Assembly: GCA_945905815.1 (NCBI GenBank)
Contig: CAMDQH010000011.1
Coordinates: 1-60,844, forward strand
DNA: 60,844 nt
Reading direction: 5' to 3'
From: Bacteriovorax stolpii
GTDB taxonomy: Bacteria > Bdellovibrionota > Bacteriovoracia > Bacteriovoracales > Bacteriovoracaceae
The number at the start of each line of letters is the position of its first letter. Within the stretch, counting starts at the first letter, position 1. The translations under genes were made by a program, and so were the position numbers. Shown here piece by piece: positions 48,935 through 54,138 of the stretch. The notes beneath the pieces are model-generated. The model was not told where the DNA came from and made no database searches. It worked only from the letters and a program-made list of their open reading frames with translations.

Positions 48935-49702
48935 TCAGTAATTGACGCGAACCATATAGAGCCCTTGGGGTGGTGCAGTTGCTCCCATACGCTCAGTTGG
49001 ACTTGAAGTAAGTGAAGAGGCAAAATCTTCGATTGAAATTTTGCTTCGCCCAACGTTCCAAACGGCACCCATTAAGAGTCTTACCATTTGCTTTAAGAAG
49101 CCATTTCCTACAATTCTGAAAATATAATGTGCAGGAAGCATTCCCCATTCATTCTGTGGAACTTCCAAAATATCACATTCAAAGATTATTCGAACAGTAC
49201 TTGAGACATCTGTTCCCTGACAAAAATGATTAGCAAAATCATGTTCACCAACCAAAATCTGACATGCCTTACGCATTTTTTCGACATCAAGATCAAAAGC
49301 ATAATTACCAATCAAATCATTTTGAAGAGCAGTCGGCTGGCGAGTACAAGTAAAACGATAGTGATACTCTTTGGAAATAGCGTTAACAGTAGGATGAAAT
49401 TCATCATCAGAATTCTTGGCGTGAATCACCCGAATATCTTCAGGCAAATTTCCATTGAGAGCTTTTAGGAGTTTGTCTGGATCAATTTCTAGTTCAATTG
49501 AAACTTTAACCACTTGACCAAGAGCATGTACCCCCGTGTCTGTTCGACCAGAACCCATACTTTGAGGTTTCGCTTTAGAGATCTGAGTCAAGGCCTTGTT
49601 GAGCTCGCCTTGGACGGTAAGTCCCATCGCCTCAGGTTGTATCTGCCAGCCGAGATAGCGAGTACCTTTATACTGAATAATTATTTGATAGTGGTGAATC
49701 AC
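48935..49702 (-). CDS. truA: tRNA pseudouridine synthase TruA
   Basis: 255 residues. YKGTRYLGWQIQPEAMGLTV (residues 11-30) and the catalytic aspartate in GSGRTDTGVHALGQ mark TruA, which converts U38-40 in the anticodon stem of many tRNAs. KEYHYRF and LKQMVRLLMGAV are also typical. Starts in a 4-base overlap with pssA and is followed by tig. Confidence 0.93.
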   Translation of the reverse strand: MIHHYQIIIQYKGTRYLGWQIQPEAMGLTVQGELNKALTQISKAKPQSMGSGRTDTGVHALGQVVKVSIELEIDPDKLLKALNGNLPEDIRVIHAKNSDDEFHPTVNAISKEYHYRFTCTRQPTALQNDLIGNYAFDLDVEKMRKACQILVGEHDFANHFCQGTDVSSTVRIIFECDILEVPQNEWGMLPAHYIFRIVGNGFLKQMVRLLMGAVWNVGRSKISIEDFASSLTSSPTERMGATAPPQGLYMVRVNY

Positions 49703-50451
49703 TTTTCTTCGGTTTCAGGCTCTTCTTGCCATTCAAAAATACCCTCAAATCTTTTACGGTGGGTGAGGAAGTACAGAAGAGAAACAACGACATAAAGAGT
49801 GATAATTACTGGGATCATAACTTCTTCATAAATAAAGAGGCTGGCAAGGATCATAAAAATTATCATCAAGCCTTGCTTTTTATGTTTCTTGGCCCATTCA
49901 GATTTCTTAAAACTCGGAAAAGGTATATTCGAAATCATAAGAACAGCATAAAAAATTAAGTAACCAACAGTAAGAGGTTTATAGTTGATAATTTCTGGAA
50001 GACCAAGTGAAACCAAAATCATCGCAACAACGGCAGTTGCTCCACCAGGTATAGGTAATCCTTGGAAGTAATCAGATTTATTTTTATCAATGTTAGCGTT
50101 GAAGCGAGCCAGTCTTAAAGCTCCACACAGCATGAAAAAGAAAGCAGCAACCATGCCGGGTCTTCCAGCTTCAGTTAAAAAACGAAAATAATAAACAATC
50201 GCTGGAGTAACACCAAAAGACACTAAATCACTCATTGAATCAAATTGTTCACCAAAGGCAGATTGAGTGTTAGTCATTCGTGCCACTCGACCGTCGACCA
50301 TATCAAAAACTGCGCCTAGAACAATAAACATGCAGGCCTTGTAAAACTCTCCCTGAAAACCATTAAGAATAGCTGCAAAGCCACATGCCATATTTAATGC
50401 AGTAAAAGTATTAGGTAAAAAAAAGGCCCAACGACGATTCTCAATCAACAT
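49699..50451 (-). CDS. pssA: CDP-diacylglycerol-serine phosphatidyltransferase PssA
   Basis: 250 residues with about seven membrane spans and the CDP-alcohol phosphotransferase motif DGRVAR-x8-GEQFDSMSD (residues 46-67). The first span ends just before the motif. It makes phosphatidylserine from CDP-diacylglycerol and serine; phosphatidylglycerol-type enzymes have a different context. It follows the psd-like gene with 11 bases between them, which is the usual psd-pssA arrangement, and overlaps truA by 4 bases. Confidence 0.85.
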   Translation of the reverse strand: MLIENRRWAFFLPNTFTALNMACGFAAILNGFQGEFYKACMFIVLGAVFDMVDGRVARMTNTQSAFGEQFDSMSDLVSFGVTPAIVYYFRFLTEAGRPGMVAAFFFMLCGALRLARFNANIDKNKSDYFQGLPIPGGATAVVAMILVSLGLPEIINYKPLTVGYLIFYAVLMISNIPFPSFKKSEWAKKHKKQGLMIIFMILASLFIYEEVMIPVIITLYVVVSLLYFLTHRKRFEGIFEWQEEPETEEK

Positions 50452-50462
50452 GAATTAAATCC

Positions 50463-51131
50463 TTATTTAACATCTTTAAAAGCAGCAATAACTGTCTGCC
50501 CAGGAACCACTCGCTCTTTTTCAAATACTAATATATCGCTATTTTGTGGAAGATAAATTATTAAAGTTCCACCGAAAGGGTAAAATCCAAAACACGCTGC
50601 ACCTCTTCCACAATCCCCAGATTTCAACCAGATAGAAGGCCGATGACCATATGTGCAATCTATAAAACGCATTAATGATTTAGTTTGATTCTTTGAACGA
50701 AGTATAAAGTCAGTATGAGAGAGCTCTGAAGCTGGTAGATAAAAGTCTTGAGATTCTGAGTTTCGTGGAATTTTCTTACCACGATTGGCCTTTAGAAAAC
50801 TAACTTCACCGGAAGTCGGAAGATAAAGACCCTTTTCAGAAAATGGACCGATGCTAATTCGAATTTCATGAGTCACAGCAACTTCATCCCATGTGGTTGC
50901 ATCTCTACGAATTGATTCAACAATACCATGAACAGGCGAAAGAAAAATTTCACCATCAAGTTTTGCAGTATCCCTTAAAGGTATTGAAGTCCTTCTACAA
51001 ATATAAAAAATAAGAATGAGAAAAATACTAGTTAAAACTTTAGGGCCAAGCGAGCAGTTCCAAAGAGCGTATATCCATAAAAGTAAAAAACTATAAACTA
51101 GCTCAGTAGGCAAAAATGTAAAGCGTTTCAT
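50463..51131 (-). CDS. Phosphatidylserine decarboxylase-like protein lacking the pyruvoyl serine
   Basis: 222 residues. Two N-terminal spans (about 10-26 and 31-46) are followed by the PSD fold. The psd-type C-terminus reads RGAACFGFYPFGGTLIIYLP (176-195) and VVPGQTVIAAF (208-218), and the position of the self-cleaving Gly-Ser (usually FGSRVDVYLP) is FGG (186-188), so no pyruvoyl cofactor can form by the normal route. The conserved histidine of SPFDVHxxxxP also seems lost (GPFSEKGLYLP). It lies next to pssA, exactly where psd belongs. It may be a non-catalytic relative or use different chemistry. Confidence 0.7.
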   Translation of the reverse strand: MKRFTFLPTELVYSFLLLWIYALWNCSLGPKVLTSIFLILIFYICRRTSIPLRDTAKLDGEIFLSPVHGIVESIRRDATTWDEVAVTHEIRISIGPFSEKGLYLPTSGEVSFLKANRGKKIPRNSESQDFYLPASELSHTDFILRSKNQTKSLMRFIDCTYGHRPSIWLKSGDCGRGAACFGFYPFGGTLIIYLPQNSDILVFEKERVVPGQTVIAAFKDVK

Positions 51132-51754
51132 ATACTCACTTTAAATTCATCTTCAGGCGCCCTGAAATAAAATGAGTCTACTTTGGTTGAAGACTTGAGT
51201 ATCGATGAAAATATAATTTTAGACTTGGATTTCAGTAAATCATCAGTGGTAGAGAATTTTTGTAAGAGGTTGCGTGAAAAATCATCAATCGCGGAGCCAG
51301 AATGACTGTAGAAAGAGGATTTATCAACAGTGTTAAGAAAATCTTCCAAGTCCTTTGAAGAAACCAGTTCGTTACGTGATTCAGTTCCATCCCAAAAATG
51401 GAAAAAGTATTCTCCCCGGTAGGCTTTCGTCATCCAGGTTCCAGCTTGAACTCCGGCCAAAACAGGAATGCTATAAGTTAGAAATGAGTTATGGGTAAAA
51501 CCTGAAAATGTAAGCACATCAGCAAATCCTTCGGAAAGTCTTAACCCTGTGTAGAATCCTGGGCCGGCGGTAGTAATGACTGAAGAAAGATCAGTAATCT
51601 TTAGGCCCACAGATTTAAGTAAATTATGTGTTTCCGTCTGAATAATGGCAGAGGCTTTTTGCCCATAAAACTTATCAAATTTAATCCAGCCAAGATTATC
51701 GTCAAGGATTCCAATAGAGATATCATAAGTTGAATCAATAAATAATTTAGCCAA
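51128..51754 (-). CDS. tsaB: tRNA threonylcarbamoyladenosine biosynthesis protein TsaB
   Basis: 208 residues of the ASKHA fold with TTAGPGFYTGLRL (91-103), the TsaB hallmark GPGSFTGLRIG. TsaB supports TsaD in forming t6A37 in tRNAs that read ANN codons. The catalytic metal residues found in TsaD are not expected here. Starts 2 bases after rseP and overlaps the psd-like gene by 4 bases. Diverged from typical TsaB beyond this motif, so moderately sure. Confidence 0.8.
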   Translation of the reverse strand: MAKLFIDSTYDISIGILDDNLGWIKFDKFYGQKASAIIQTETHNLLKSVGLKITDLSSVITTAGPGFYTGLRLSEGFADVLTFSGFTHNSFLTYSIPVLAGVQAGTWMTKAYRGEYFFHFWDGTESRNELVSSKDLEDFLNTVDKSSFYSHSGSAIDDFSRNLLQKFSTTDDLLKSKSKIIFSSILKSSTKVDSFYFRAPEDEFKVSI

Positions 51755-51756
51755 AT

Positions 51757-53307
51757 TTAAAACAATCTTGAGATGTCGTTAAAAAGTGCCACAAAGATTA
51801 AAAGAAAAAGCAACGAAACACCAACTCTCTGTGAGATTTCAATTTTTCTCCGAGACAGTGGGCCACGATTAACAACTTCAAAAATGAGAAACATTATATG
51901 GCCACCATCAAGCACAGGAATTGGGAACAGATTAATAACGCCAAGATTAATAGATATGATAGCCATCAATCTGAAAAACATAGATAGGCTAATATTGAAA
52001 GAATCTGAGGCAACTTTCCCTATTGCGAGAGGACCGCCGATATTATTAAGAGACACTTCGCGAGTGATTAGTTTTTTGTAACCATTGAACGTTTTAACTA
52101 TGCCATCCCACGTGCGTGTGAATGCGCCAGTTAATGCAGCTCCAAAGCTGTCCGCCTTAGAGACAATCAGCTTAGGCGGGATGTATTCCACCCCACTTTC
52201 AATCCCAATTATTTTCGTTTTCTTTTTATCAATTTCTTTAATTTCGGGAATGATCTGCTTCGTAACTTCTTGACCAGCAGTAACAAGAGTTACATTTACA
52301 GACTTACCATCTTCTATTTTTTGAAGTGTCAGTCGCAATTCTTCAAAATTTCGTAGGGCAACTCCATTGATTTTTGAAAGAATATCTCCCTTTTTGATCC
52401 CGGCCTTATCGGCTGGGGAAGACATCACAACGTTATCAACGGTTAGTTCAACAGGAAAAAAACCTAATCCTAATAGGATATCAACAAGGTTTTTTGTAGG
52501 ATCAGAAGAAATAAGAGACTCGCTTGCGGGATCAATTTCAATTTTGTCCTGAGTTTGCTTAAAATTATAAAGATACGCAGTACCTTTAAAATCTGACGAT
52601 ATTTCTTCATATGATGAAGTAAAGGCGGTTGGTTTCTGAGTTAACGATATGTAAAATCGTTCGCCGTTTGCGTTGGTAACAATTGGTCGTTTAACAACAG
52701 AAACGAGGCTAACAAATGCTTCAATAAATGGCTCAATTGCCATATCAACGTTCATTTCAATTTTTTGATCGGCTCTCTTAACAATCACTTTTTCAATTGT
52801 AGAACCTTTGATGTTAAAATCATCAAAGCTAAGTATCTTTTCATCATTTATGCCAATAAGTACGTCACCAGTACGAAGGCCCTTTTGATAGAGGACAGAT
52901 TGTTCAGTAACAAGACCAACCTTCGTTTCTGGTACTTTCTCACCACCGGCAAGAAGACCCACATATAAACAATATGCCAGAATTAAATTTGCGAGAGGAC
53001 CACCAAAAACAATCCAAAACCTGGCCCATTTAGACTTAAAATTAAAGGCAACTTTCTTTTCCTCATCACTCAAAGGTATTTCAGAAAATGGATCATCACC
53101 AAACATTTTAACATATCCACCAAGAGGAACGATTGAAATTGCATACTCGGTACCATTACGTACATGTTTGAAAATTTTAGGTCCAAAACCGAGAGAAAAA
53201 ACTTCTACTCTTACACCAAAGAAACGCGCAAAAAGGAAGTGTCCTAATTCATGAAAGAAAATAAGAGGACCTAGAAATATAATGAAAATTAAAATGCCTT
53301 GTAACAT
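51757..53307 (-). CDS. rseP: Site-2 protease RseP
   Basis: 516 residues. HELGH (19-23) at the end of the first span is the zinc site of S2P metalloproteases; LFPIPVLDGGHIMF near residue 455 gives the third ligand and the LDG motif. Two PDZ domains lie between (about 120-175 and 285-365). It cleaves membrane-bound anti-sigma factors or signal remnants in the inner membrane. Between cdsA and tsaB; order cdsA-rseP is widespread. Confidence 0.93.
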   Translation of the reverse strand: MLQGILIFIIFLGPLIFFHELGHFLFARFFGVRVEVFSLGFGPKIFKHVRNGTEYAISIVPLGGYVKMFGDDPFSEIPLSDEEKKVAFNFKSKWARFWIVFGGPLANLILAYCLYVGLLAGGEKVPETKVGLVTEQSVLYQKGLRTGDVLIGINDEKILSFDDFNIKGSTIEKVIVKRADQKIEMNVDMAIEPFIEAFVSLVSVVKRPIVTNANGERFYISLTQKPTAFTSSYEEISSDFKGTAYLYNFKQTQDKIEIDPASESLISSDPTKNLVDILLGLGFFPVELTVDNVVMSSPADKAGIKKGDILSKINGVALRNFEELRLTLQKIEDGKSVNVTLVTAGQEVTKQIIPEIKEIDKKKTKIIGIESGVEYIPPKLIVSKADSFGAALTGAFTRTWDGIVKTFNGYKKLITREVSLNNIGGPLAIGKVASDSFNISLSMFFRLMAIISINLGVINLFPIPVLDGGHIMFLIFEVVNRGPLSRRKIEISQRVGVSLLFLLIFVALFNDISRLF

Positions 53308-53316
53308 ACGGAATCC

Positions 53317-54138
53317 TTATTGAAAATTCGCCATCAAAAAAAAGGCATAAAAAGGCGCCACAAAGAGCAGACTATCCACTCTATCATATACGCCACCATG
53401 CCCCGGAATAAGGGACGAACTATCTTTTATATCAAACTGACGCTTTAACTTAGATTGAACAAGATCCCCTACTTGAGAGCTACATGCAACCAGCGTAAAG
53501 AAAACTATCATAAACGGGGTAACTTCAGAGATGTATGTTTTCCAAAAATAGTATGTGGAGAGAACAGAAAAGAAAACACCTCCAAGGGCACCCTCAATTG
53601 TTTTCTTGGGGCTAACTGACTCCCATAGTTTATGTTTGCCAAATTTCTTTCCAGTAAAATAAGCCGCTGTATCTACCATGAAGTTTAGAATAAAAAGACC
53701 AACCAGAAACAGTCTCCAGTTGTCGAAGTGAATAATATAACTCAAGCATAAAAGAGGGATGAGAACGACGAGACCGGTCAACCATGAAGTCGCTCTAAAT
53801 ACAGTCAGTAGCATTTCTGATTTTTTGTAAACCAGAAACAAATATCCCAATAATAACACATTAAGAACAATTCCTGCAGAGTTCCAAAAGCTAAAAGAGG
53901 ACTGGCTAATTTGATAAAAATTGAAAAAAGTATAACCCGTAATGTAAAAGACCTGTGCAAGAAAATATTTTTTTGAATTTCTGCGTTGGATATAAAAATT
54001 AGTTATGAGTTCATCGATAACCAAGAAACCAATGATGCCAATAAAAAACAAAGTCGCCTTGGGCCCACTTATAATACAACCAACAACGAGGAGGAGGAGT
54101 ACAATGCCTGAAATGATTCTTGTTTTGGTATTAGACAT
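53317..54138 (-). CDS. cdsA: Phosphatidate cytidylyltransferase CdsA
   Basis: 273 residues with about eight membrane spans. The C-terminal signature S-VGDLVQSKLKRQFDIKDSS with PGHGGVYDRVDSL identifies CdsA, which makes CDP-diacylglycerol from phosphatidate and CTP. It overlaps the upstream uppS gene by one base (TAATG type) and is followed 9 bases later by rseP. Confidence 0.93.
   Translation of the reverse strand: MSNTKTRIISGIVLLLLVVGCIISGPKATLFFIGIIGFLVIDELITNFYIQRRNSKKYFLAQVFYITGYTFFNFYQISQSSFSFWNSAGIVLNVLLLGYLFLVYKKSEMLLTVFRATSWLTGLVVLIPLLCLSYIIHFDNWRLFLVGLFILNFMVDTAAYFTGKKFGKHKLWESVSPKKTIEGALGGVFFSVLSTYYFWKTYISEVTPFMIVFFTLVACSSQVGDLVQSKLKRQFDIKDSSSLIPGHGGVYDRVDSLLFVAPFYAFFLMANFQ

Follow-up and report, generated by a model that had tools for sequence, protein, structure and literature searches.

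Phosphatidylserine decarboxylases (PSDs) are pyruvoyl enzymes, and in the E. coli enzyme the processing triad is D90/D142-H144-S254 (PMC7952604). Three described systems come closest to the locus analysed here: the short PSD (PRK05305/NF003678-type, including archaetidylserine decarboxylase relatives), the long Psd, and the prozyme of trypanosomatid AdoMetDC, a dead paralogue of a pyruvoyl decarboxylase that acts as an activator (PMC5201418). A search of the open-access literature gave no description of a pseudo-PSD, and nothing useful on a Bdellovibrio PSD or on phosphatidylthreonine.

We compared these systems with a psd-like gene (50463..51131, minus strand) of Bacteriovorax stolpii, carried on a stretch of 60,844 nt that was analysed as a whole (the window). 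Its product shares with the short PSD the fold, the length and two N-terminal helices, as well as the place beside pssA and the C-terminal frame. Unlike the short PSD, it lacks the Ser, the His, the Asp (with two exceptions in the family) and the NE[RQ]N motif, and it scores far under the family cut-offs. With the long Psd of the same genome (309 aa, closest to PRK00723/NF001941) it has in common membership of the PSD superfamily and an FGG stretch at the cleavage loop, but the long Psd retains VDYHRYH and GGST, and its gene lies elsewhere. The likeness to the AdoMetDC prozyme lies in a dead paralogue that stands alongside an active pyruvoyl decarboxylase in a single lineage (PMC5201418). The prozyme belongs to another enzyme family, however, and the active enzyme, here the long Psd, is also found without the dead protein.

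A PSD-fold protein in a conserved operon

The psd-like ORF starts with ATG and encodes 222 aa. Its first 4 nt overlap the end of a tsaB-like gene (51128..51754, minus strand; PF00814 above cut-off) that lies directly upstream, and a gap of 11 nt separates its end from pssA, the CDP-diacylglycerol-serine O-phosphatidyltransferase gene (49699..50451, minus strand; TIGR00473, 137 bits versus a cut-off of 107). The protein falls short of the cut-off of the catalytic family PF02666 (20.1 versus 22 bits). Among NCBIfam models, that of the short-PSD family NF003678 matches best (residues 12-218, E = 2.5e-12), at 46.6 bits, far under the 225-bit cut-off; the NCBIfam short-PSD models cover the protein almost end to end, all of them with scores far under their cut-offs. 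A profile search of PDB sequences returned weak matches, mainly to barrel-sandwich domains, and a fold comparison was therefore required. The AlphaFold (AF2) model, for which 72 relatives were aligned, has high confidence (pLDDT 92.2, pTM 0.88), and Foldseek ranks two pyruvoyl enzymes, PsiD and E. coli PSD, highest among solved structures. DSSP assignment of the model gives two hydrophobic N-terminal helices (residues 9-25 and 28-44; 51000..51107, minus strand), a probable membrane anchor, and the AF2 model of one canonical short PSD has the same two. Since these helices of the canonical enzyme are retained, membrane association of the modelled protein is likely. The PSD fold and the N-terminal membrane helices place the protein in the PSD superfamily. 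By sequence, structure and genome place the product is a PSD-fold protein, and here profiles, AF2/Foldseek and synteny agree with the original prediction, which had put such a protein in the psd place beside pssA.

Gene order around the psd-like gene is fixed throughout the order: cdsA, rseP, tsaB, the psd-like gene and pssA, with truA and tig further on. In the window, cdsA (CDP-diacylglycerol synthase; 53317..54138, minus strand; PF01148, 180 bits) and an rseP-type M50 protease gene (51757..53307, minus strand; PF02163 and PDZ domains) occupy their conserved places, as does the tsaB-like gene, and pssA is directly downstream of the psd-like gene in all loci save one at a contig edge. Outgroup families have a canonical short psd directly before pssA, in the very slot of the psd-like gene; in one of them (L064) an aspartate-semialdehyde dehydrogenase gene comes after the canonical psd and pssA, and truA comes next. 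Outgroup genomes with a canonical psd thus place the psd-like gene as a syntenic orthologue of the short psd beside pssA. In a tree of dead and canonical proteins rooted on the canonical ones, a branch with SH-aLRT support of 100 sets the dead proteins apart from the others. Sequence comparison indicates that the psd-like protein is almost certainly a dead paralogue derived from the short PSD beside pssA. The simplest reading of these sequences would be that function was lost once, in the order's ancestor; with the root set on the canonical proteins, this is a reading rather than a proof.

Many genera of the order have additional sequence between pssA and truA, and the window has none. At one locus (L133:4517-5500, plus strand) this sequence codes for a protein of 327 aa that matches no Pfam family and has a signal-like N-terminus.

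Lost catalytic residues and the register of the cleavage site

Residue counts were taken from 66 aligned proteins of the window's order and set against eight canonical short PSDs from other families of the same phylum (L064, L065 and L161-L166). Where the canonical proteins read SPADG, HxNRxP, NE[RQ] and FGS, the window protein has SPVHG, EKGLYLP, no NE[RQ], and FGGT. At the cleavage site the psd-like protein has YPFGGTLIIYLP where canonical short PSDs have IRFGSRVDLYLP. The position of the pyruvoyl-forming Ser is taken by Gly188 (codon 50568..50570, minus strand), and this column holds Ser in none of the 66 proteins of the order (Gly in 65, Ala in 1) versus 8/8 canonical short PSDs. The catalytic His (HxxRxP/HxNRxP) is likewise absent from 66/66 and present in 8/8; in the window, the change from VHxNRxP to EKGLYLP puts Lys100 (50832..50834, minus strand) in its place. 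The catalytic Asp is kept in two of the 66 proteins and lacking in 64, versus 8/8 canonical proteins with Asp, and the window protein has His68 there (50928..50930, minus strand; SPADG to SPVHG). No NE[RQ]N motif was found at the aligned place in any of the 12 dead proteins of one alignment, and all eight canonical proteins have it. Loss of Ser and His in 66/66 proteins of the order, with both kept in 8/8 canonical ones, is far beyond chance. The absence of the Ser at an FGG site and of the conserved His, both predicted from the window alone, therefore holds throughout the aligned order, and the missing Asp and NE[RQ]N are losses beyond those predicted. With all four gone, a canonical pyruvoyl PSD would be unable to form, as had been proposed.

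An orthologue in G029 (L070:4014-4679, minus strand) keeps the Asp (SPVDG) and has FGGS but no His; it is possibly an intermediate in the loss of function.

An alignment that placed another Ser at the cleavage point would have told against the prediction, and we looked for one. The canonical Ser aligns on Gly188 without gaps around the site in canonical and dead short proteins, and in two AF2 models Ser183 of a canonical homologue and Gly188 of the psd-like protein both open the strand that comes after the loop; no other Ser was found there. As an alternative cleavage Ser we considered GGS, which occurs in 4/66 proteins, but this Ser is one residue past the canonical place and all four lack the His, and it was rejected. 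The only nearby hydroxyl residue in the window protein is Thr189 (codon 50565..50567, minus strand), which is variable across the family (T 47, K 6, I 6, S 4, E 1, F 1 and Y 1 among 66 proteins of the order) and fits only the register of long PSDs (FGGST), one place after the Ser of canonical short PSDs.

One could nevertheless suppose that Thr189, or Ser in the four proteins that have it, serves, in the FGGST register, as a shifted residue for processing and yields a 2-oxobutyryl or pyruvoyl enzyme. The FGGT of the psd-like protein does resemble the long-Psd sequence FGGS; L042, L070, L140 and L153 have FGGS or LGGS, and L070, with both Asp and FGGS, makes the best case. A Ser-to-Thr change in E. 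coli PSD is reportedly processed poorly, and this was also counted on the side of a shifted residue. However, the ungapped alignment and the AF2 models of both kinds of protein place the Ser on Gly188, 15/66 proteins have K, I, E, F or Y at position 189, and the His is absent from all 66. On these alignments processing at Thr189 appears unlikely, and we give a shifted-register enzyme very little credence.

The long Psd and the persistence of the psd-like gene

A second psd elsewhere in the genome was among the options originally raised, and a genome search found one. It encodes a 309-aa long Psd on another contig (G000:C23:25970-26578, minus strand), the single strong PF02666 match of the genome (1.6e-48), with an intact site (VDYHRYH and FLFGGSTVIL); the DYHR and GGST residues are common to the long PSDs of all family relatives read. 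Across the order, 126 of 129 genomes have a PF02666 match, and almost all of these matches belong to the long type. The intact long Psd would account for synthesis of phosphatidylethanolamine (PE), and it is likely, judging from its sequence, to be the PE-forming enzyme. In the simplest history, the long Psd took over decarboxylation and thereby freed the short PSD from that duty.

The first catalytic Asp of the long Psd is replaced by Glu at L001:1477-2406 (minus strand; AEARY versus SPADG) with DYH kept, and the same combination is found in every long PSD read from the family. In the E. coli enzyme, D90 and D142 act as mutual backups (PMC7952604). Two further loci in relatives, L186:1-1590 and L188:198-2168 (both plus strand; G113 and G026), encode proteins of 529-656 aa with a PSD domain, FGGSS or NGST sites and hydrophobic, signal-like N-termini; these sequences may be those of exported PSD-family proteins. 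Long PSD-domain frames also occur in G112 and G114, which like G113 have no psd-like gene.

The family profile of the psd-like protein matches 116/129 genomes and 41/48 genera of the order, most of the genomes compared being metagenome assemblies, and the frames are open nearly throughout. Two genomes that at first seemed to be without the gene (G081 and G028) carry diverged copies. A phylum-wide search gave few and weak matches outside the window's family, and the eight that were read are canonical short PSDs. Scanning 84,980 species genomes by pattern, we found 34 relatives, titled mainly Bacteriovoracaceae, Bacteriovorax and Halobacteriovoraceae.

The dN/dS ratio (NG86) is about 0.05-0.12 for the psd-like gene versus about 0.01-0.03 for pssA, with dS near saturation in most pairs; two less saturated pairs give 0.086 and 0.092. 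The psd-like gene is under purifying selection, and its amino acids change roughly two to six times faster than those of pssA. Intact orthologues together with dN/dS rule out a sequencing or assembly error and decay of the gene. That the gene is a decaying remnant without function might be argued from its faster evolution relative to pssA, its outright loss in some genera and the change of Arg174 to Cys in the window. Frames intact in nearly all of the 116 genomes, the dN/dS of about 0.05-0.12 and a conserved fold with a confident AF2 model make this reading extremely improbable.

The psd-like gene has been lost in genera g47/g48, g52 and g67, which retain pssA and the long Psd. Because a few genera have cleanly lost it, the gene is dispensable, and these clean losses rule out the idea that either PssA or the long Psd has the protein as an indispensable partner. 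Five genomes (G112, G113, G114, G118 and G150) have the long Psd and pssA but no psd-like gene before pssA, and in four of them pssA lies directly after tsaB.

These five genomes bear on whether the psd-like protein is a strict prozyme, a lineage-specific factor that the long Psd needs, as activator or subunit, in order to process itself or to be active. The long Psd and the psd-like gene occur together in nearly all genomes of the order, the AdoMetDC prozyme provides a precedent among pyruvoyl decarboxylases, and the long Psd, its activity inferred from sequence, supplies the active paralogue in the same genome. However, the long Psd has a full processing site of its own, and in the five genomes it does not depend on a psd-like paralogue. 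A strict prozyme is less likely because these genomes keep the long Psd and pssA without the psd-like gene, and we regard it as improbable.

Conserved positions and a putative role in phosphatidylserine flux

Conservation in the psd-like family has shifted to G172-D173-[RK]174-G175, G101, E109 and the Gly pair 187-188. The G-D-[R/K]-G motif (residues 172-175; 50607..50618, minus strand) is new in this family: among 66 proteins, G172 and D173 are each found in 66, R or K174 in 57 and G175 in 61, and of the other conserved positions G101 is kept in 63/66 and E109 in 58/66. Within the window's genus, the segment WLKSGDRGRGAACFGxYPFGGT is nearly fixed. At 50610-50612 (minus strand) the window protein itself has a Cys174 codon where 57/66 proteins have Arg or Lys.

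Both the nearly fixed segment and the new near-invariant positions (D173, G172, G101, E109 and R/K174) would fit a newly gained, non-pyruvoyl enzymatic activity on a phospholipid headgroup or another membrane substrate, exerted through GD[RK]G, Glu109 and Gly101. We consider this unlikely: beyond D173 and E109, few of the counted polar positions are conserved family-wide, position 180 (Cys180 in the window) is C in 30 and N in 23 of 66 proteins, Arg174 is absent from the window protein, and Gly-rich conservation is also compatible with a constraint on fold or surface.

We favour, as probable overall, an explanation in which the ancestral short PSD became a membrane-anchored pseudoenzyme that tunes the flux of phosphatidylserine (PS), with the long Psd as the decarboxylase. 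In the ancestor of the order, the short PSD beside pssA would have lost its residues for making the pyruvoyl cofactor; the separate long Psd now presumably decarboxylates PS. The psd-like protein, held in the membrane by its two N-terminal helices, may retain binding of PS or another anionic lipid and could thus serve as a non-catalytic regulator or scaffold, tuning PS flux between PssA and the long Psd. A specific regulatory or lipid-binding role is the one we judge most likely, albeit tentatively; purifying selection and conservation of the operon lend indirect support to the "new role" that was one of the options first suggested. Points against a regulator are the evolution of the gene, which is faster than that of pssA, the strong divergence of its most distant orthologues, and its loss in genera that retain pssA and the long Psd. 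Since the operon also holds tsaB, rseP, truA and tig, the place of the psd-like gene is by itself no proof of a lipid role. More speculatively, the dead PSD might sense or present PS in the membrane and so set the PS/PE balance of the Bacteriovorax-type lineage; as far as we found, control of this balance by a dead PSD has not been described for bacterial conversion of PS to PE.

Place and fold together tempt one to annotate the gene as psd, and such an annotation would misassign PE synthesis. If the regulatory reading is true, the bacterial PS/PE pathway would contain a conserved pseudoenzyme, the psd-like protein, and the order would offer a natural experiment in which a lineage with both the enzyme and its dead relative can be set against sister genera without the dead one.
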